In this document: positions 21,288 to 30,965 of the stretch, one piece after another
Numbering within the stretch: position 1 is the stretch's first letter
Layout: every line of letters begins with the position of its first letter
The notes under the pieces: model-generated
What the model was told of the DNA's origin: nothing
Seen by the model: only the letters and a program-made list of their open reading frames with translations
Database searches by the model: none
DNA from: Elusimicrobiales bacterium
GTDB taxonomy: Bacteria; Elusimicrobiota; Elusimicrobia; Elusimicrobiales; UBA9959
DNA length: 44,179 nt
Assembly (NCBI GenBank): GCA_023701245.1
Contig: JAMPXK010000016.1
Span: 1 to 44,179, forward strand
Direction: 5' to 3'
Program-made: the position numbers and the translations under genes

Positions 21288-24233
21288 TCAGGCCGCCACG
21301 GCGCCGCGGCCTTCCGAGCCGTCTATGCGGATATCCAGCGGCTTGTCGAAACGCAGGTGGCGGATATAGGTCCCCTCAGCTACCGGCGCCTGCGCTTTTA
21401 TGCGGTCCCAGTTTATGAAGGAATCCGGGCCGGTCTCGTGGACGGTCAGGTAGCCCATGCCCAGCGAGGTGACGTTATGGAAGAAGTGCGTGCCGTAGGA
21501 CGGGTCCACTATGAAGTCCCCGTAGGCCGCTTCCACTATGACCCTGGAGGCCGAGATGTGGTTCCACTTCACGGGGATGCCCAGCAGAGGGTCGCTGGAC
21601 CCCCAGCGGCCGGGACCTATGATCACGTAGGAGCGGCCTTCCTGGCGCAGGCGGGCGTTCAGTTCGCCTATCTCCGCGGCTATGTCGCGGGTCTTGAGGG
21701 CGTCGAACTTTTCGGGGATAACGTAGATCAGGTCTGAGATATCCTTGTGGGCGCCGTTGCCCAGCGCCTTGGCGCTCAGGCACAACAGGCTCTCCGGCTG
21801 CAGGTCCCGGAGCGTCACTTTTTTTACGGGGCTTCGCGAGACCATGGGCCGCATCTGCAGGATGTTGAAGGAGGCAGCGCCGCTCTCCCGGTCGTAATCG
21901 CAGGCGAATTCCATCTCTATGTTGCAGCCCATCGCCTCCTTGCCCAGGGCCGAGGCGGTGCTCAGGATCTCCGCCAGCGGCAGGGCTTCGTTCTTAAGGA
22001 TGGGGGCGAAAGTGACCAGCCTGCGCCCCTGTTCCGAAATACCGTCGTAAACCCGGTCGTTCTCGGCCGAATAGGCGCTGCCGACCAGCTCCAGCGACCC
22101 GTCGGCCTCCGCTTCCTCGATGCCGGCCCCGGCCAGCGCCGGCTCCTCGTCGTAGCGCAGCGGGTCCGCCCCGGCGCCCAGCTTAAGGGTTATCAGTTTT
22201 TTCTGCGAGTTGGTGAGGAAATCCGTCAGCGTGGAGAACTGGTGCAGGTTGTGCGGGTGGGCGGGGGAGAAGCGCAGGGCGTTGTAGCCCTCCACTATGG
22301 TCTTGCCCAGGCCCAGGGCGATATGGGCTATGGGGTCCTCAGCCTCCAGCGGCGGCACCGGGTAATAGTTGTAGGACTGCATCACCCCGGCGAAGGCGGG
22401 ATAGAAGCGGCCCTCCTTGTAACGGCGCCCGACCACTTTCTGGATCACCACCGCCATCTTTTCCTCTTCTATGAACAGCGGGTTCATTTTGCGGTAGGCG
22501 CGGGCTTCGCGTGAGAACACCGAAGCATAGATGAACTTTACCGCCCGCTCCAGTTCGGCCAGGCGCACGCCGGGGTCCGGGCTGTCGTTGGGGAGCATGT
22601 AGGTCTTGTAGACGCCGGCGAAAGGCTGGGTCTTGGAGTCCTCCAGCAGCGAAGAAGAGCGCACCGCCAGCGGGCCTTCGAGTTTTTCCACCAGGGCGGC
22701 CAGGTCGCGGGTCACGTAGTCCGGCAGGCGGGCCCTTTCGAAGATGGCGGCGGTCTCCTCGCTGGTGTGGTTCTCGTTGATGACCGAGTCCAGGCCGTTC
22801 TGCTCCATGAAGAAATCGAAAACGTCGGTGGCTATCACCACCGTGTTTGGTACGGCCACCGTTACCCCGGGCCAGCGGGTCTCCAGGTCGCTCTTCGAGA
22901 GCAGGAAATCCACGAAAGCGAGGCCCCGGGCCTTGCCGCCTATGGAACCGGAACCTATTTTGGCGAAGGGGGTGGAATCGTCGAAGAGCTTGCGGTCGAA
23001 CTTGAGCACCGTGCCCAGCTGGGTCTTGTAGATGAACTGGTGCATCGTCTCGATAAGGTATTTGCGCAGCTGCTCGGGGTTGCTGAATTCCGAGATCTTC
23101 TTGGGCCGGATATGGTAGGCCATCTCGAATTCGGTACGGGCGAACAGCCACTTGGAAAAGTGGTTGCGGCCGGCGTGGTAGAGTACGGACTCTATGGGCA
23201 CCAGCTTCAGCAGCTTGAGCATGGTGTTGAGGTCCGCGGCCCGGGCCAGTTCCGCGCCGTTCTGGTCGGTAAAGACGAAGTCGCCGAACCCGAAGTAGCG
23301 AAGGATGAAGGCGCGCAGCTGCTTGGACAGGTCCGGCGCGGCCTTGTGCACGAAAGCCGCGCCCAGCCCGGCGGCGGGGCCGGCCATGCGCGCGTTGGAG
23401 GACTGCAGCAGCACGGGCATGTCGGGGTTCTCGGCCTTTATCCGGCGGGTCAGCTCCAGGCCGGCTTCGGGGTGGCAGGCGCCGCCCATCGGGTATTCCA
23501 CGTCGCTTATGACGCCCAGCAGGTTGCCCTTGTATTTTTCATAGAGGGCCCAGGCTTCCTCGTAAGTGCTGCAGAACAGGATCTTGGGGCGGGCGCGCAG
23601 GCGTAAATTCTTCTTGGCCGGGTTCAGCTCTTCCGCCATCACTATCTGCGTCTGCTTCATCAGCTCGGTGTAGATGAGCGGGAGGTAGGTGGAGTAGAAC
23701 TTTATGTTATCTTCCACCAGCAGCACGGCCTGCACGCCTACTTTGGAGTCCTGGTCGAAGTTCCTGGCGTCCTCTATGATATTGATGATAGCCGAGAAGA
23801 TGCGGGTGTCGCCGCTCCAGAGGCAGATGCCGTCGGCCAGCCGGCGGGCTTCGTCCAGGACGTTCTTGATATCCTGCACGTTGAAGGACAGCAGCACTAC
23901 CGGCAGGCCGGGGCGCCCTTCCTTAAGGCCGCGGAAAAAATCCGCCATGTCCGTTTCGCCCACCTGGATCATGGCGATGACCAGGTCGAAGGACCCGCGC
24001 TTGAGCTTTTCCATGGCTTCTTCGGCGGTGGCCACGCGGGTTATCTTGGGGGTGGCGCGGCCGGAATCCGGAAGTTCTCCGAAGAGGGCCTCGTTGAGGC
24101 GGTCGTCGTCGGCCAGCAGGAAGGAATCGTAAAGGGAGGCCACCATCAGGACGTTCTTGATCCTGTGCGGCATCAGTTTTTCGAAGCCGCCGAATTCCAC
24201 TTCGTAGTCGCCTGGTTTTTTTGATGTCGGCAT
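21288..24233 (-). CDS. Two-receiver PEP/pyruvate-binding (PPDK N-terminal-like) signalling protein
   Basis: 981 residues from the ATG at 24233 (an ATG at 24239 would add two). Residues ~20-150 are a receiver-like domain whose phospho-acceptor appears lost (FDLVIAMIQVGE). A second receiver (~165-320) keeps VLLVEDN, Asp in GVISDVEYPMGG and Lys in VHKAAP. A linker (SVLYHAGRNHFSKWLFARTE) leads to an ATP-grasp domain like the N-terminus of PEP synthase/PPDK: IGSGSIGGKARGLAFVDFL, LAVRSSSLLEDSKTQPFAG, MAVVIQKVVGRRY, FNILQMRPMV. The phosphohistidine and PEP barrel domains are absent. The tail carries VIIGPGRWGSSDPLLGIPV. Possibly a phosphorelay-controlled kinase or binding protein. Confidence 0.82.
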   Translation of the reverse strand: MPTSKKPGDYEVEFGGFEKLMPHRIKNVLMVASLYDSFLLADDDRLNEALFGELPDSGRATPKITRVATAEEAMEKLKRGSFDLVIAMIQVGETDMADFFRGLKEGRPGLPVVLLSFNVQDIKNVLDEARRLADGICLWSGDTRIFSAIINIIEDARNFDQDSKVGVQAVLLVEDNIKFYSTYLPLIYTELMKQTQIVMAEELNPAKKNLRLRARPKILFCSTYEEAWALYEKYKGNLLGVISDVEYPMGGACHPEAGLELTRRIKAENPDMPVLLQSSNARMAGPAAGLGAAFVHKAAPDLSKQLRAFILRYFGFGDFVFTDQNGAELARAADLNTMLKLLKLVPIESVLYHAGRNHFSKWLFARTEFEMAYHIRPKKISEFSNPEQLRKYLIETMHQFIYKTQLGTVLKFDRKLFDDSTPFAKIGSGSIGGKARGLAFVDFLLSKSDLETRWPGVTVAVPNTVVIATDVFDFFMEQNGLDSVINENHTSEETAAIFERARLPDYVTRDLAALVEKLEGPLAVRSSSLLEDSKTQPFAGVYKTYMLPNDSPDPGVRLAELERAVKFIYASVFSREARAYRKMNPLFIEEEKMAVVIQKVVGRRYKEGRFYPAFAGVMQSYNYYPVPPLEAEDPIAHIALGLGKTIVEGYNALRFSPAHPHNLHQFSTLTDFLTNSQKKLITLKLGAGADPLRYDEEPALAGAGIEEAEADGSLELVGSAYSAENDRVYDGISEQGRRLVTFAPILKNEALPLAEILSTASALGKEAMGCNIEMEFACDYDRESGAASFNILQMRPMVSRSPVKKVTLRDLQPESLLCLSAKALGNGAHKDISDLIYVIPEKFDALKTRDIAAEIGELNARLRQEGRSYVIIGPGRWGSSDPLLGIPVKWNHISASRVIVEAAYGDFIVDPSYGTHFFHNVTSLGMGYLTVHETGPDSFINWDRIKAQAPVAEGTYIRHLRFDKPLDIRIDGSEGRGAVAA

Positions 24234-24271
24234 AGTCATTATTCTACAAAAACATGGCCTTGTCTCTAACC

Positions 24272-24300
24272 TTGACAACGGGGGGAACGGGGGCTATACT
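24272..24300 (+). promoter_or_regulatory. Sigma-70 promoter of the tandem exported pair
   Basis: Perfect -35 TTGACA (24272-24277), 17-base spacer, -10 TATACT (24295-24300); start expected near 24307, with a GGAGG ribosome site before the ATG at 24363. Confidence 0.88.
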
Positions 24301-24362: not shown

Positions 24363-25535
24363 ATGCTGACTAATCACCTTTCTCGAGGCGCTTTGGCACT
24401 GCTGGCGGCCGCGGCCCTGTGCGCGGCGCCACTGGCGGCCCAGGACGAAGAGGAGGCCGGGGAAGAGACCGAGGTCTCCGAGCCTGCCGTGCAGGAGGAG
24501 GGAGCGGGCCTGCAGCAGGCGCCCCAGGCGCAGCAGCAGGGCCAGCCCCACGCGGCCCCGTCCGGGTCCGTTTCCCAGTCCGGCATGGGCATACACAGCG
24601 GCTCCGGCATAGCGGCGCCCAAGGCGTCCGGCGGTTCCGGCGCCGGCGGCGGGGAAAGCCAGGTTTCCTGCGGTCCCGCGCCTTCCAAGGTGCGCACCTA
24701 TAAACTCAGCGACTACAACTTCGGGGGGCAATGCGGCGGGGGCGCGTGCGACCCTTCCATACAGCTCAAGCACTACCGGTATCCCTTCACGGTGAAGGTG
24801 CAGGAGATAGCGGACTTCATGGAGCGCTGCGATTTCCGTGCGGATACTCCCTGCCCCCTGTCAGGTTCAAATTACCCCAACGTCAACGAAGCCAACAGCA
24901 TTTCGGTCTTCACGCAGGCGGCGGTGGGGGCGTCCATTCCGGAATCCGTTGGGAGCGGGGCGCCGGCGGGCGTAAGCGTTACGGCCGCGCCCTTCGTCGG
25001 CATCAGCCGGGCCAACATGGCGTTCGATATAAGCATCCCTTTCGAGATCGACCCGCGCATGGCCGGCCGGACCTACATGTTCGGTTACAACAAGAACACC
25101 AACAATCCCAGTTACATGCAGATCTCCATTTCCGAGTGCGAGGGGGATTATTCCCAGTCCGCGGTGCATGTGGTCACCGGCCATGATATCTCCAATAACC
25201 TGATCTACGCTACCACCGGCCTGGAGGGGTCCAGCCGCATAGCCGCCAACACCATCGTGAGCCAGTTCGCCCTGAAGGCGGGCAAGCGCTATTACCTCAA
25301 CCTCCGGGAGTTGTCCAACTTCAAGAACCCGTATGCCCGGACCGACGCTCTTGCCGACAAGGATATTTTCAGCAATACCCTGATGCGGCTTTTTTACAGG
25401 GATATGAAGGGGTTCTATATCGAGTCCTACAGGTTGATGTTCATGGCCTATCCTAAAGGCCACAGCATGGAGTTTACCGACGCCAAGTTCATGGCCAGCC
25501 CGGGCTTCCGCAGGCCGGGGCAGGCGTTCAAGTAA
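24363..25535 (+). CDS. Exported Cys-containing protein of unknown family, paralog 1
   Basis: 390 residues. Signal peptide 1-26; residues ~27-100 are a low-complexity acidic then Gln/Gly/Ser-rich linker. The conserved domain runs from CGPAPSKVRTYKLSDYNFGG to the C-terminus, with cysteines in SCGP, GQCGGGACD, ERCDF, TPCPL and SECEGDYS that may form disulfides. Notable strings are FGYNKNTNNPSYMQ and FMASPGFRRPGQAFK. No known family could be assigned. The following gene is a tandem duplicate whose domain is nearly identical while the linker differs. Strong promoter and GGAGG ribosome site suggest abundant expression. Possibly a surface or envelope structural protein (inference). Confidence 0.8.
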   Translation: MLTNHLSRGALALLAAAALCAAPLAAQDEEEAGEETEVSEPAVQEEGAGLQQAPQAQQQGQPHAAPSGSVSQSGMGIHSGSGIAAPKASGGSGAGGGESQVSCGPAPSKVRTYKLSDYNFGGQCGGGACDPSIQLKHYRYPFTVKVQEIADFMERCDFRADTPCPLSGSNYPNVNEANSISVFTQAAVGASIPESVGSGAPAGVSVTAAPFVGISRANMAFDISIPFEIDPRMAGRTYMFGYNKNTNNPSYMQISISECEGDYSQSAVHVVTGHDISNNLIYATTGLEGSSRIAANTIVSQFALKAGKRYYLNLRELSNFKNPYARTDALADKDIFSNTLMRLFYRDMKGFYIESYRLMFMAYPKGHSMEFTDAKFMASPGFRRPGQAFK

Positions 25536-25569: not shown

Positions 25570-26754
25570 ATGGCGCTTAATTATATCCCCCGGATAGCGC
25601 TCCTGTTGCTGGCGGCCGCGGCCCTGTGCGCGGCGCCCCTGGCGGCCCAGGACGACGAGGAGGAGTACGGCGAGACCGGCAGGGTGGTTTCGGAGTCCGT
25701 CTCCGGTCAGGACGGCGAAGGCGCCCCGGTGCACCAGTTGACCCAGGGTAAGCGGCAGGCGCAGAAGAAAAACGCCTCTTCCGGAGACGTGCCCCAGGCG
25801 AAGCCCGGGCTGAACAAGGGGTCCGGGATAGTCTTCGGCAAGCCGGCCGCTTTCGGCGCCGGCAATCTGAAGAATTCCTCCGTGGGCTGCGCCCCCGCGC
25901 CCTCCAGGGTGCGCACGTATAAGCTTGCCGACTACAACTTCGGGGGGCAATGCGGCGGGGGCGCGTGCGACGCTTCCATACAACTTAAGCACTACCGGTA
26001 TCCCTTCACGGTGAAGGTGCAGGAGATAGCGGATTTCATGGAGCGCTGCGACTTCCGTACCGATACTCCCTGCCCGCTGTCAGGCTCCAATTATCCAAAC
26101 TCCAACGAGGCCAACACTATTTCCGTTTTCACGCAGGCGGAGGTGGGGAAGTCCATCCCGGAAGCCGTCGCCGGAGTGGTGCCGCAGGGCGTGAGCGTTA
26201 CGGCCGCGCCCTTTATCGGCATCAGCCGGGCCAACATGGCGTTCGATATGAGCATCCCTTTCGAGATAGACCCGCGCATGGCCGGCCGGACCTACATGTT
26301 CGGTTACAACAAGAACACCAACAATCCCAGTTACATGCAGGTCTCCATCTCTCAGTGCGAGGGGGATTATTCCCAATCCGCCGTGCATGTGGTTAACGGC
26401 GGGGACATCTCCAATTACCTGGTCTACGCCACCAGCGGCCTGGAGGGCTCCAGCCGCATAGCCGGCAACAGCATCGTGAACCAGTTCGCCCTGAAGGCGG
26501 GCAAGCGCTATTACCTCAACCTCCGGGAGTTGTCCAACTTCAAGAACCCGCACGCGAGAACCGACGAGCTCGCGGATACGGATATCTTCTCCAATACCCT
26601 GATGCGGCATTTTTACAGGGACATGTCCGGATTCCAGGTAGAGTTTTACCGGCTGATGTTCATCGCCTATCCTAAAGGCCACAGCATGGAGTTTACCGAC
26701 GCCAAGTTCATGGCCAGCCCGGGCTTCCGCAGGCCGGGGCAGGCGTTCAAGTAA
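25570..26754 (+). CDS. Exported Cys-containing protein of unknown family, paralog 2
   Basis: 394 residues. Same architecture as the preceding gene: signal peptide with a nearly identical core (LLLAAAALCAAPLAAQD), a diverged linker (~28-105), then a conserved domain keeping all the cysteines, FGYNKNTNNPSYMQ and the identical final FMASPGFRRPGQAFK. The ribosome site CGGAGGCTG and the DNA after the stop (ACCGGNGGCCGGTC) are also duplicated, so the copied unit is about 1.2 kb. No separate promoter is visible in the 34-base gap; transcription probably continues from 24272-24300. Ends in a strong terminator. Confidence 0.8.
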   Translation: MALNYIPRIALLLLAAAALCAAPLAAQDDEEEYGETGRVVSESVSGQDGEGAPVHQLTQGKRQAQKKNASSGDVPQAKPGLNKGSGIVFGKPAAFGAGNLKNSSVGCAPAPSRVRTYKLADYNFGGQCGGGACDASIQLKHYRYPFTVKVQEIADFMERCDFRTDTPCPLSGSNYPNSNEANTISVFTQAEVGKSIPEAVAGVVPQGVSVTAAPFIGISRANMAFDMSIPFEIDPRMAGRTYMFGYNKNTNNPSYMQVSISQCEGDYSQSAVHVVNGGDISNYLVYATSGLEGSSRIAGNSIVNQFALKAGKRYYLNLRELSNFKNPHARTDELADTDIFSNTLMRHFYRDMSGFQVEFYRLMFIAYPKGHSMEFTDAKFMASPGFRRPGQAFK

Positions 26755-26898: not shown

Positions 26899-28077
26899 AT
26901 GGAAAAACCCTCGCTAAAACCCAAATGCCCCAACTTCTCTTCCGGCCCCTGCGCCAAGCGCCCCGGCTGGACCGTCGACGCCCTTAAGAACGCCCTGGTG
27001 GGCCGTTCCCACCGCTCCAAGGAAGGCAAAGCCCGCCTGCAGGAAGTTTCCGACCGCATGAAGAAAGTGCTGAACCTGCCCGCCGACTACCGCATAGGCG
27101 TGGTGGCCGGCTCCGACACCGGCGCCGTCGAACTCGCCATGTGGACCCTGCTCGGCCCGCGCCCCGTCGACATCTTCGGCTGGGAAGCCTTCAGCAAGGG
27201 CTGGATCACCGACGCGGTGAAATATCTCAAGCTGCCCAAGGTCAACGAGTACAAGGCCGACTTCGGCAAACTGCCCGACCTCACCAAGGCCAACGCCCAG
27301 AACGACATCATCTTCACCTGGAACGGCACCACCTCCGGCGTGAAGGTCCCGAACCTGAACTGGATCCCGAAAGACCAGCAGGGCCTCGTGATCTGCGACG
27401 CCACCAGCGGCGTGTTCGCCATGGACATCGACTTCACGAAACTCGACGTGGTGACCTTCTCCTGGCAGAAAGTGCTGGGCGGCGAGGCCGCGCACGGCGT
27501 CATTATCCTGTCGCCGAAAGCGGTGAAGCGCATGGAAGAGCAGAATTCCAAGATCACCTGGCCCGTGCCCAAGATCTTCCGCCTGGTGGACGAGAAGAAG
27601 CTGCTGCCCGGCGAGCTGGAATACAGCACCATCAACACCCCGTCGATGCTCTGCGTCGAGGACGCCATAGACGCCCTGAAATGGGCCGAGACCGTGGGCG
27701 GCCTGCCCGGGCTCGTGCGGCGCTCCACCGCCAACCTGGCGGCTTTCGAGAAGTGGGTGGAGAAATCCTCCTGGATCGCTTTCCTCGCCGAGACCAAGGA
27801 GACCCGCTCCAACACCTCGGTCTGCTTCAAGATCAAGGCCGAGTGGTTCCAGAAGCTCGGTGACGAGGACAAGGTTAAGGCCGCCAAGAAGATAACCTCG
27901 ATGCTGGACAAGGAAGGCGTGGCCAAGGATATCAATTCCTACGGCAAGGCCCCTGCCGGCATCCGCGTGTGGTGCGGCGCCACCGTAGAGACTTCCGATA
28001 TCGAAGCGCTGATCCCGTGGCTCGACTGGGCCTACGAGCAGACAGCCAAGGAATATTCCAAGGAGGCAGTGAAATGA
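26899..28077 (+). CDS. serC: Phosphoserine aminotransferase
   Basis: 392 residues. Converts 3-phosphohydroxypyruvate and glutamate to O-phosphoserine, the second step of serine synthesis, using PLP. It belongs to the class-V aminotransferase branch seen in alphaproteobacteria and methanogens (N-terminus [30 protein letters not shown]). PLP contacts: [34 protein letters not shown], and the Schiff-base lysine Lys191 in [25 protein letters not shown] near the end is also typical. Its stop overlaps the serA start (ATGA), giving translational coupling. Glutamate for the reaction could come from the gdhA product. Confidence 0.94.
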
Positions 28078-29024
28078 GCAAAGTGCTTATAGCAGACAAA
28101 GCCGATCCCCTTTGCGAGAAGGTGCTGAAGGACCGCGGCCTCACCGCCGTGGTGAAGACCGGCATGAAGCCCGAGGAGCTGAAGGCCTGCGCGCACGAGT
28201 ACGATGCCATCATAGTGCGCTCCGCCAGCAAGCTGACCCGCGAGATCATCGAGGCCGCCAAGAACCTGAAGGCCGTGGCGCGGGCCGGCGCCGGAGTTGA
28301 CAATATCGACGTGGTCGCCGCCAGCGAAAAGAAAGTCCTGGTCATGAACACGCCGTTCGGCAACACCGTGAGCACCGGCGAGCACGCCATCGCCATGATG
28401 TTCGCGCTGGCGCGCCATATCCCGCAGGCTAACGCCTCCACGCACGCCGGCAAGTGGGAGAAGAGCAAGTTCGAAGGCGTGGAGATCACCGGCAAGACGC
28501 TGGGTGTGGTGGGCTGCGGCAATATAGGCGCCGTGGTGGCCGACCGGGCCAAGGGTCTGCACATGGACGTGCTGGTGTTCGACCCGGTGATGACCACCGA
28601 GCGCGCCCGCGAGCTGGGCGTGAAGATGGTGACCCTGGACGAACTGTACGCCAAGGCCGACTTCATCACCTACCACGTGACCATCAATCCCAACACCAAG
28701 GGCATGCTCAATAAGGACACGATCGCCAAGATGAAGAAGGGCGTGCGCATCATCAACTGCGCCCGCGGCGGCATCATGGTGGAGGCCGACATAAAGGCCG
28801 CCATCGAGAGCGGCCATATCGCCGGCTTCGCGGTGGACGTGTACGCCAACGAGCCCGCCACCGAGCATATATTCTTCGGCATGGAGAAAGTGATCTGCAC
28901 ACCGCATATCGCGGCCTCCACCAAGGACGCGCAGGTGACCGTGGCCCGGCAGGCAGCCGAGCAGATAGCGGACTTCCTGCTTACCGGCAAGCGCACGCAC
29001 GCGGTTAACGGCGACAAGATATAG
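28074..29024 (+). CDS. serA: D-3-phosphoglycerate dehydrogenase, short form without ACT domain
   Basis: 316 residues. Oxidises 3-phosphoglycerate to 3-phosphohydroxypyruvate with NAD+, first step of serine synthesis. Substrate domain with [12 protein letters not shown] and [12 protein letters not shown]; Rossmann motif [17 protein letters not shown]; catalytic Arg in CARGGIMVE, Glu in YANEPATEH and His in TPHIAAST. The protein stops at THAVNGDKI, where longer enzymes (~525 residues) continue into ASB and ACT domains, so allosteric inhibition by serine through an ACT domain is not expected. Start set by the ATGA overlap with serC. Confidence 0.93.
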
Positions 29025-29035
29025 GTTAACAGCGC

Positions 29036-29070
29036 GGCTCGGGTTTCCGAACGGAAGCCCGGGCTGTTTT
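29036..29070 (+). terminator. Hairpin with short T-tract after serA
   Basis: A 14-bp stem with several G-U pairs (GGCTCGGGTTTCCG with CGGAAGCCCGGGCT, loop AA) followed by TTTT. It could end or attenuate the serC-serA transcript before the structured leader of the DUF1015 gene. Confidence 0.65.
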
Positions 29071-29089
29071 ACATAAGGAAGTTCCGGCA

Positions 29090-29250
29090 GGTATAGCAGG
29101 AGGGGTGGCGAGGGTTTGGCCGACGAAGGCCCTCGCGGAGGCCCGAGCTTGCATAAGCGCGAGGGCCGAGTGAGGAGGGGCGCACACGGTGTGTGCGACC
29201 CCGTGCCTGAGGAGGTAAACCCTCGACAGGCCCCCGAACCTGCAGCTGCC
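29090..29250 (+). other. Structured leader/repeat element, copy B, upstream of DUF1015 gene
   Basis: Hairpin array. GCGAGGG (29108-29114) can pair with CCCTCGC (29130-29136), or GGCCCTCGCG (29128-29137) can pair with CGCGAGGGCC (29158-29167); the two are mutually exclusive. The second stem encloses GCTTGCATAAGC. Then GTGAGGAG, a hairpin with arms GGGG/CCCC (29177-29180, 29199-29202), bulged A, inner arms CGCACAC/GTGTGCG and a GGT loop, and CGTGCC. Copy C at 1-120 (minus) has the same layout with compensatory changes. Candidate non-coding RNA, cis-regulator or mobile hairpin. Confidence 0.6.
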
Positions 29251-29280: not shown

Positions 29281-30537
29281 ATGGCAAAACTCCCTCTTTT
29301 CTCACCCATCTACGGCATACGGCCCGCTCCTGGCAAGGCGCAGGAAATTATCGCGCCGCCTTACGACGTGATGGACTCGGAAGAGGCCCGGGAGATGGCC
29401 AAGGGCAAGCCTAACAGCTTCCTGCACGTGTCCAAGGCCGAGATAGACCTGCCGCCCGGCACCGACGTGCACGACGAGTCGGTTTATAGGAAGGCCGCGG
29501 AGAATTTTGAAAAGATGCTTAAGAACGGGCTGCTGCTGCGCGAGAACAAGCCGTGCTTCTACGCCTACCGCCTCCAGATGGGCGCGCATATACAGACCGG
29601 CCTGATGGTGGGCGCCTGCGTGGAGGACTACGACAATAACCGCATCCGCAAGCACGAGTTCACCCGCCCGGTGAAAGAAGACGACCGCGTTAACCAGATC
29701 AAGTTCGTGAAAGCCCAGACCGGCCCCGGCATCATAGCCTACAAGCAGGTGCCCGAGATCGACGCCGTCATCAAGAAGAACGTGAAGAAAGAGCCGCTGT
29801 TCTCGGCCACCGGCGCCGGCGGCGTGATCCACACGCTGTGGCTGATAGACGACGCGGCCGACATAAAGGCCATCTCGGACGCTTCGGAGCGTCAGAAGAC
29901 CGTTTACATCGCCGACGGCCACCACCGCAGCGCCGCCGCCAGCCGCGTTAAGAAGTTCATGGTCGAGACCCGCGGCAACGCGCATACCGGCACCGAGCCT
30001 TATAACGTCTATCTCGCCGCCGCGTTCCCGGTGAACGAGATGAAGATCTGGGACTATAACCGCGTGGTGAAGGACCTCAACGGCCTCACGCCGGAAAAAT
30101 TCCTCTCCGAAGTTCAAAAAAGTTTCGAAGTGAAAGAGGTCAAGGGGCAGGCGAAACCCGCCGCCCGCCGCGAGTTCGGCCTCTACCTGGGCGGCAAGTG
30201 GTACCTCATGAAGCCCGCGGTGAAGACCCCGACGAAGGAAGAGGACCCGGTGAAGGCGCTGGACGTCAGCGTGCTGAGCGACCTGGTGCTGGACCGCGTG
30301 CTCGGCATAAAGGACCTGCGCAAATCCGACCGCGTGGACTTCGTGGGCGGCATACGCGGCCTGGGGGAGCTGGAAAAGCGCGTTAACTCCGGGGAGATGG
30401 CCGCGGCTTTCGCCCTGCACGCCACCTCGCTCGACGAACTTATTTCCGTGGCGGACGACAACCAGGTGATGCCGCCCAAGTCCACCTGGTTCGAGCCCAA
30501 ACTGGCCGACGGCGTGGTCTCCAACCCGTTGCTTTGA
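29281..30537 (+). CDS. DUF1015 family protein
   Basis: 418 residues. Typical DUF1015 start (LPLFSPIYGIRPAPGKAQEI, IIAPPYDVMDSEEAREMA) and signature IADGHHRSAAASR at residues 210-222 (Asp212, His214, His215, Arg216); also HEFTRPVKEDDR. The GHHR-type loop recalls the nucleotide-binding loops of ParB/sulfiredoxin-fold proteins, including free serine kinases (established for that fold; application here is inference). The family often lies beside serA/serC, as here, and no phosphoserine phosphatase gene is in this window, so a role in phosphoserine metabolism is plausible but unproven. The ATG follows an AAGGA ribosome site; upstream in-frame codons lie inside the structured element. Confidence 0.9.
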   Translation: MAKLPLFSPIYGIRPAPGKAQEIIAPPYDVMDSEEAREMAKGKPNSFLHVSKAEIDLPPGTDVHDESVYRKAAENFEKMLKNGLLLRENKPCFYAYRLQMGAHIQTGLMVGACVEDYDNNRIRKHEFTRPVKEDDRVNQIKFVKAQTGPGIIAYKQVPEIDAVIKKNVKKEPLFSATGAGGVIHTLWLIDDAADIKAISDASERQKTVYIADGHHRSAAASRVKKFMVETRGNAHTGTEPYNVYLAAAFPVNEMKIWDYNRVVKDLNGLTPEKFLSEVQKSFEVKEVKGQAKPAARREFGLYLGGKWYLMKPAVKTPTKEEDPVKALDVSVLSDLVLDRVLGIKDLRKSDRVDFVGGIRGLGELEKRVNSGEMAAAFALHATSLDELISVADDNQVMPPKSTWFEPKLADGVVSNPLL

Positions 30538-30545
30538 GGGCAATG

Positions 30546-30965
30546 ATGAAACACAAGATCCTGATAGTGGACGACGAGGAGAATATCCTCTTCGTCACCA
30601 AGACGGCCTTCGAAAGCCATTACGAGGTCTTCACGGCCCCGGACGGCTCCACCGCGCTGGAGATCATCAAGAAAGAAAGGCCGGTGCTGGTCTTCCTGGA
30701 TATCAAGATGCCCGGGATGTCGGGCATGGAAGTCCTGGAGGCCATAGCCGAGCTGGCCTTCCGGCCCACGGTCTGGATGCTTACCGGCGACGAGGATCTG
30801 GACACCGCCATAAAGACGCTGCGCACCGGCGCCGCCGGCTACGTGACCAAACCCTTCGAGCTGAACCGCCTGCGGGAGATAGTGCTCAGCACCGTGGAGT
30901 CCTCCAAGACCTCCGGAGAGAAACCTTCGGAGCGGCCCTGGCGGGTAAAGAAGAAGAAGGAGTGA
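30546..30965 (+). CDS. Single-domain response regulator
   Basis: 139 residues, a lone receiver (CheY/Spo0F-like). Acidic pocket VDDEE (Asp9, Asp10), phospho-acceptor Asp52 in VFLDIKMPGMSG, Thr80 in WMLTGDE and Lys102 in VTKPFE are all present, so it should be phosphorylated. A basic tail (WRVKKKKE) replaces an output domain. The ATG at 30546 was preferred because GAGG lies at a suitable distance; 30543 is possible. It begins 8 bases after DUF1015 and runs into the transglutaminase-like gene. The cognate kinase is not adjacent; the hybrid kinase at 37867 is a distant candidate. Confidence 0.9.
   Translation: MKHKILIVDDEENILFVTKTAFESHYEVFTAPDGSTALEIIKKERPVLVFLDIKMPGMSGMEVLEAIAELAFRPTVWMLTGDEDLDTAIKTLRTGAAGYVTKPFELNRLREIVLSTVESSKTSGEKPSERPWRVKKKKE

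Follow-up and report, generated by a model that had tools for sequence, protein, structure and literature searches.

A DUF1015 protein encoded behind serC and serA in an Elusimicrobiales bacterium: a candidate serine/phosphoserine enzyme related to free serine kinases

Introduction

Free serine is phosphorylated to phosphoserine by SerK (PMC5120207, in excerpt), which together with SbnI belongs to the ParB-fold, nucleotide-using proteins (PMC12704722, in excerpt). The reference enzyme in the following is the archaeal, ADP-dependent SerK of Thermococcus kodakarensis (5x0b); in some archaea SerK has the same neighbor genes as the type-A DUF1015 proteins described below (PMC5120207, in excerpt). 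SbnI (5uje, 5ujd, 6nr6) is the free serine kinase of siderophore synthesis, a different pathway (PMC12704722, in excerpt). The opposite conversion, from phosphoserine to serine, is carried out by SerB of the HAD family, by the histidine-phosphatase type of phosphoserine phosphatase (PSP) and, as predicted, by the PSP replacements named in the excerpts of PMC9026213, among which DUF1015 does not appear. Some organisms show a gap at this step: the reconstruction of PMC9026213 (in excerpt) covers 2856 gut genomes and finds 450 in which SerA and SerC are present and a phosphoserine phosphatase is lacking, Caldithrix abyssi has SerA and SerC and no recognized SerB (PMC5317091, in excerpt), and Clostridium perfringens, which needs glycine that could supply its serine, grows without serine and has SerB candidates of low confidence only (PMC7311316, in excerpt); all of these are compared here by their SerB gap alone. 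Serine prototrophy of Endomicrobium (PMC11257099, in excerpt) was too ambiguous to be used as evidence. No paper tying DUF1015 to serine was found in the open-access literature; subscription papers and preprints were outside the scope of this search, and prior work may exist.

Here, these systems are compared with a locus of an Elusimicrobiales bacterium that lies on a contig stretch of 44,179 nucleotides, referred to as the window.

The serC-serA-DUF1015 locus

The locus contains the following features, all on the forward strand.

26899..28077, +, serC, phosphoserine transaminase (NF002841 and TIGR01365, both above cut-off)
28074..29024, +, serA, short 3-phosphoglycerate dehydrogenase (TIGR01327, below cut-off; PF00389 and PF02826)
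29025..29100, +, strong hairpin and then a short stretch of Ts, within the serA-DUF1015 intergenic region (-31.6 kcal/mol for 76 nt; one sequence folded)
29281..30537, +, type-A DUF1015, predicted ParB/SerK-fold serine/phosphoserine enzyme (PF06245; structure model; PDB matches SerK, 1vk1 and SbnI)

SerC scored 606 bits with NF002841 (cut-off 477) and 571 bits with TIGR01365 (cut-off 448), and its stop codon is overlapped by the serA start at 28074 as ATGA. The SerA of the window reached 396 bits with TIGR01327, under the cut-off of 454, and a Pfam scan of its frame, begun three codons upstream of the ATG, found no ACT domain. From the end of serA to the start of DUF1015 there are 256 nt. A strict hairpin-plus-T rule was satisfied by 16 of 42 related serA-DUF1015 gaps versus 8 of 1800 plain shuffles; the window's own copy of the hairpin misses this rule. 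Because a strong hairpin follows serA in the window and in many relatives, DUF1015 may here be transcribed partly on its own, and the hairpin may lower its expression or separate it from that of serA. A GC-rich hairpin with a T run was seen after serA at loci L048-L054, L056, L058, L085-L090, and L123.

The DUF1015 frame encodes 418 aa from its ATG. An alternative, longer frame has a TTG start at 29116. In many relatives a Met stands at the ATG or a few residues from it, and the ATG at 29281 is, judged from these sequences, the likely start, not a proven one, because the relatives had been trimmed to the stretch that matches the window protein. This is the only DUF1015 gene in its genome. With 342 bits against a gathering threshold of 25.8 (E 3.3e-102, residues 8-330) the protein is a member of PF06245 by curated score, a family to which the Pfam entry assigns no function. 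At E<=1e-3, the Pfam scan returned DUF1015 alone, without any DNA-binding family and without the helix-turn-helix and C-terminal dimerization domains of ParB partition proteins, and the NCBIfam scan returned no family and thus no match to the SerB model TIGR00338. PF06245 corresponds to COG4198. Five metagenomic COG4198 genes are under a glycine riboswitch (PMC2211319, in excerpt); this was rejected as support, as no such riboswitch was found at the Rfam gathering score in the window, in 24 type-A loci, or in 13 loci of other subtypes including L172.

Three subtypes of DUF1015 are distinguished, under labels of this analysis. Type A, comprising the relatives of the window protein and 33 loci of other phyla, has (I/V)ADGHHR with S, C, T, or A as the next residue; a second subtype mostly has ADGHHRYE, and a third, found at L172, has GDGNHSLATAK. 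The gene with the latter motif (L172:6528-7925, genome G084) lies directly behind serC-serA, in the usual position of type A, and judging from coordinates alone a distant DUF1015 probably occupies the same position in G162 (C27:23362-24249).

Fold and sequence relation to free serine kinases

The earlier note had likened the IADGHHR loop to those of ParB/SerK-like proteins. The fold which this implies was borne out along two lines, a structure model with nine PDB matches and a sequence profile. Within the protein, four features are relevant to the comparison.

29281..29550, +, N-terminal stretch, residues 1-90, mostly outside the SerK match, with a conserved PPYDV (VIA alignment)
29656..29658, +, E126, candidate counterpart of SerK E30 (proposed from its invariance; E30 is named in PDB titles)
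29908..29928, +, IADGHHR, a loop like the ParB P-motif, residues 210-216 (HMMER profile alignment to SerK LIVDGHHRWA)
30469..30504, +, C-terminal motif MPPKSTWFEPKL, residues 397-408 (profile alignment to SerK SPKTTR, chain positions 219-224)

The AlphaFold model, computed with an alignment of 41 type-A sequences (A1; L118 was left out, the stretch taken from it being out of frame), has a mean pLDDT of 93.3 and a pTM of 0.88. Foldseek against the PDB at E<=1e-3 gave nine matches, namely five SerK entries (5x0b, 5x0k, 5x0g, 5x0e, 5x0j), the Pyrococcus protein 1vk1 and three SbnI entries (5uje, 6nr6, 5ujd), and the entry at rank 10 had a probability of 0.08. When Foldseek's own candidates were rescored with VIA-align, a procedure that leaves room for fold families outside that list, the nine kinases and homologs reached Z 11.4-13.2 over 211-227 residues of chains of 232-254, and the next row 2.4; the rmsd values of 4.3-6.0 are large. 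In this predicted model the ParB/SerK fold spans both parts of the kinase. The alignment begins at residues 91-100 in five of the nine rows and at residues 24-30 in the other four.

A profile of 22 sequences from all three subtypes (A3), searched against 177635 PDB sequences at E<=10, gave four matches: 1vk1 at E 4.8e-5 and, at 0.002, three sequences of SerK. They comprise two collinear stretches, which contain DGHHR and PKTT. The tie to SerK suggested by these sequences is independent of the predicted model. When the window protein or the type-A profile served as the only query, the PDB sequences gave no SerK match, and the profile of another DUF1015 subtype reached 1vk1 and SerK at E 0.11-1. 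The DUF1015 profiles align with the DGHHR loop of SerK as well as with its C-terminal PKTT, where K400 is invariant in the 22 sequences. The other invariant residues of A3 are Y28, E126, R136, D212, G213, H215, R261, P398, and F404; E126 is the sole invariant Glu and, besides D212, the sole invariant acidic residue. In SerK the catalytic glutamate is E30, and E126 is a candidate for its counterpart.

The kinship is distant. DUF1015 resembles T. kodakarensis SerK in its fold (Z up to 13.2), and both have the DGHHR loop and the PKTT/PKST motif, but their identity in the structural match is 14-16%, and the DUF1015 protein, with 418 aa versus about 241 aa, has an extra N-terminal stretch. SerK is archaeal, whereas the DUF1015 protein is bacterial, adjoins serC-serA in genomes without SerB above the cut-off, and has a predicted activity. 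SbnI, which is likewise bacterial, shares the fold at Z 11.4-11.8 over 211-213 residues, but only 8-14% of the residues are identical.

Distribution and gene linkage

The order serC-serA-DUF1015 reported in the earlier note was confirmed, and the tie to serA and serC is real and reaches other phyla. DUF1015 occurs in 154 of the 198 sampled Elusimicrobiota genomes. Gene positions were checked in 56 of these 154, which represent families f1, f2, and f7/g22, and in 52 of them serC lies within 3 kb of DUF1015 on the same contig; of the other four, three have serC on another contig and one has no serC match. Of the 39 Elusimicrobiota-type loci (some assigned by similarity) whose upstream sequence exceeds 2.5 kb, 38 have both serC and serA. 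From the remaining 98 genomes with DUF1015, 20 loci of other subtypes were inspected, with serC at none and a serA-like gene at one, as judged by models that were built from type-A loci and may miss other kinds of SerC. Outside the Elusimicrobiota, serA and/or serC is directly adjacent on the same strand at 18 of the 33 type-A loci (17 Bacillota and one Zixibacteria). The distance between frames, measured between stop-to-stop frames, is below 100 nt in 17 of these 18 and 309 nt in L116. The 15 unlinked loci are from Proteobacteria (all seven proteobacterial loci), Bacteroidales (three), Cloacimonadota (two), Bacillota (two), and Verrucomicrobiota (one). The gene order is more than chance. For 16 type-A loci that are not part of a serC-serA cluster, inspection of the neighbors by eye, with one neighbor scanned, revealed no common theme.

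Among six neighboring SerA proteins that were scanned, PGDH_inter and ACT domains are present in four long ones (L098, L101, L105, and L118), which had been picked for their length, and absent from the short ones of L103 and L112. ACT domains of 3-phosphoglycerate dehydrogenases serve feedback by serine. In the Clostridia clusters L112 and L104, the transaminase matched the BhcA and AepZ models best, below their cut-offs, rather than SerC; perhaps it belongs to the SerC3 group of PMC9026213 (in excerpt). In two Porphyromonas species the genes for SerC, an NAD(P)-binding protein and DUF1015 are neighbors, and the excerpts of the source make no claim about DUF1015 (PMC11316588).

In one family, f2, the loss of DUF1015 also goes along with that of SerA. 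Of the 55 f2 genomes considered, sampled for having any serC match and called for SerA by TIGR01327 at E<=1e-60, 31 have DUF1015 and SerA, none DUF1015 only, one SerA only, and 23 neither; as these genomes are related, the Fisher value for f2 overstates their independence. None of the 24 f2 genomes lacking DUF1015 has serA in the stretch around the serC match, some of these stretches being cut by contig ends. In family f1, DUF1015, SerA, and SerC co-occur in 22 of 24 genomes, and the other two have none of the three. The f2 loci without DUF1015 (L147-L170) hold serC-like transaminases and no serA in the stretch. Two of these transaminases that were scanned, L147 and L159, are below every serC cut-off, and that of L164 (G128) is over the TIGR01365 cut-off.

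Phosphoserine phosphatases in genomes with DUF1015

The statement in the earlier note that the window has no serB also holds for its contig (C64), on which TIGR00338 had no match at E<=10, and for the entire genome, which is 92.8% complete and in which no protein reaches the cut-off of this model (best 19.5 bits versus 144). SerB above the cut-off was found in none of the 198 Elusimicrobiota genomes and in none of the 33 genomes of other phyla with type A, whose completeness is not given; of the 14 control genomes, 7 were positive in each of these scans and in that of Clostridia below. Weak matches are common, with 153 of the 198 Elusimicrobiota at E<=1e-3 and 26 of the 33 type-A genomes elsewhere at E<=1e-5.

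An anticorrelation between SerB and DUF1015 was considered as proof of replacement and rejected. It looks strong at 0 of 33, but is weakened by two other groups of genomes. In Clostridia, SerB above the cut-off is missing from all 273 genomes (up to 10 candidates per genome scored), with or without type A. Type-A matches (E<1e-65) occur in 61 of these 273 and weaker DUF1015 matches in 53; SerB-like proteins at E<=1e-15 are present in 10 of the 61 type-A genomes versus 15 of the 212 others, so that SerB and type A are not anticorrelated in Clostridia. In the proteobacterial class of the Thiobacillus genome G199, only 73 of 276 genomes have SerB above the cut-off, and its absence from all five presumed type-A genomes of this class is therefore unremarkable. 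SerB and DUF1015, the latter counted regardless of subtype, occur together in two controls, Bacteroides ihuae and Methanosarcina acetivorans. The absence of SerB is thus compatible with its replacement by DUF1015 and does not prove it.

Predicted function of type-A DUF1015

A type-A DUF1015 protein would transfer a phosphate to or from free serine, exchanging it with another partner, and thereby interconvert serine and O-phosphoserine. Its DGHHR loop and C-terminal PKST motif have equivalents in conserved regions of SerK, which makes the same substrates likely, and E126 would be the likely catalytic acid/base. SerA and SerC lead from 3-phosphoglycerate to phosphoserine, and the most probable job of DUF1015 would be the step from phosphoserine to serine, replacing SerB. 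The chance that it is a ParB/SerK-fold enzyme acting between serine and phosphoserine, and probably making serine here in SerB's place, is in our estimate just under even. The computed results are that the protein resembles SerK in fold and sequence, that its gene is linked to serA and serC, that DUF1015 and SerA are lost together in f2, and that SerB above the cut-off is lacking. From this we infer the substrate, the catalytic residue, the phosphate acceptor (a nucleotide, water, or other) and the direction. If this is right, DUF1015 would catalyze the same reaction as SerB, the histidine-phosphatase PSP and the replacements in the excerpts of PMC9026213, which belong to other families. The suggestion of the earlier note, that DUF1015 is a candidate for a missing step of serine synthesis, stands in part: the tie to serA and serC, the SerK fold, and the lack of SerB above the cut-off in the genome and 198 relatives speak for it, but the SerB absence extends beyond DUF1015 carriers, an MtnX-like HAD phosphatase is encoded in the genome, two controls have DUF1015 together with SerB, and the characterized relatives run from serine to phosphoserine.

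For an enzyme of this kind, synthesis of serine is favored over the kinase direction at somewhat under twice the weight, because the neighboring genes make phosphoserine, SerB above the cut-off is lacking, and the four long neighboring SerA have ACT domains, which fit synthesis. Further points against the proposed role are that the SerA of the window is short and without ACT, that a hairpin lies between serA and DUF1015, and that 15 of 33 loci are unlinked. Reversal of a kinase toward serine is uphill, so that serine synthesis would need hydrolysis or a strong pull. With the same fold and substrates, the protein could instead be a free serine kinase, and SerC and SerA would run backwards to 3-phosphoglycerate, or phosphoserine would enter cysteine synthesis. 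We regard this as possible but rather unlikely. The direction from serine to phosphoserine is downhill, every significant structural match is a free serine kinase or a homolog of one, and ACT is missing from the SerA of the window and two of the six neighboring SerA scanned. Moreover, serK of some Desulfurococcales adjoins genes for 3-phosphoglycerate dehydrogenase and an aminotransferase, an arrangement which the authors interpret as serine assimilation (PMC5120207, in excerpt). However, the ACT-bearing long SerA beside DUF1015 fit synthesis, and genomes with SerA and SerC and without SerB would still need a route to serine from 3-phosphoglycerate.

Alternatively, the true phosphoserine phosphatase might be an unrecognized HAD or other enzyme, and DUF1015 would act elsewhere near the pathway, which appears improbable. 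HAD enzymes are often promiscuous, and the genome has nine PF12710 matches, of which three were classified (L010 as MtnX-like, L012 as PGP-like, L013 without an assigned family). The best of them is the MtnX-like HAD-IB protein L010:1480-2127 (G000:C83), which is over the HAD-SF-IB cut-off, matches the MtnX model NF007103 at E 3.6e-21, far under its cut-off, and has the MtnX phosphatase 2fea as its nearest PDB entry. However, it reaches only 16 bits with the SerB model (cut-off 144) and is encoded on a contig other than that of serC-serA-DUF1015. A PSP of the histidine-phosphatase type was rejected, since a single frame (160 aa) exceeds the PF00300 cut-off, and this one resembles SixA while scoring under the SixA cut-off. 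Less probable still is a non-enzymatic regulator that binds serine or a nucleotide on its ParB-type domain and tunes SerA/SerC or senses serine. Nucleotide switches do exist among ParB-fold proteins, and a PNAS 2025 survey selected a 'DU1015' fusion as one of 50 such proteins for tests of nucleotide binding (PMC12704722, in excerpt), but the match of the window protein covers most of SerK and includes DGHHR and the C-terminal PKTT, and no DNA-binding Pfam family was found.

Beyond this locus, the predicted conversion of phosphoserine to serine could make type-A DUF1015 the unrecognized enzyme that completes serine biosynthesis in much of the anaerobic and uncultured bacteria, with a SerK-type active site in place of a HAD or histidine phosphatase and with the phosphate possibly passed to a nucleotide rather than wasted; this is a tentative proposal, to which we give clearly less than an even chance. 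With a candidate family defined by fold, motifs, and gene cluster, the SerB gap becomes testable. If true, a Pfam family still called 'unknown' would gain a function, and SerK-type enzymes would extend to several bacterial phyla.

Other features of the window

Directly after DUF1015, on the same strand, a receiver-only response regulator is encoded at 30540-30965 (+). Another frame, 21288-24278 (-), encodes a fusion protein that combines a receiver domain of the response-regulator type with a PPDK_N ATP-binding domain. Upstream of serC lie the tandem paralogous frames 24363-25535 and 25570-26754, whose products of 390 and 394 aa have 300 identical positions; that of 24363-25535 had no Pfam match, and both have starts that, by eye, resemble signal peptides.
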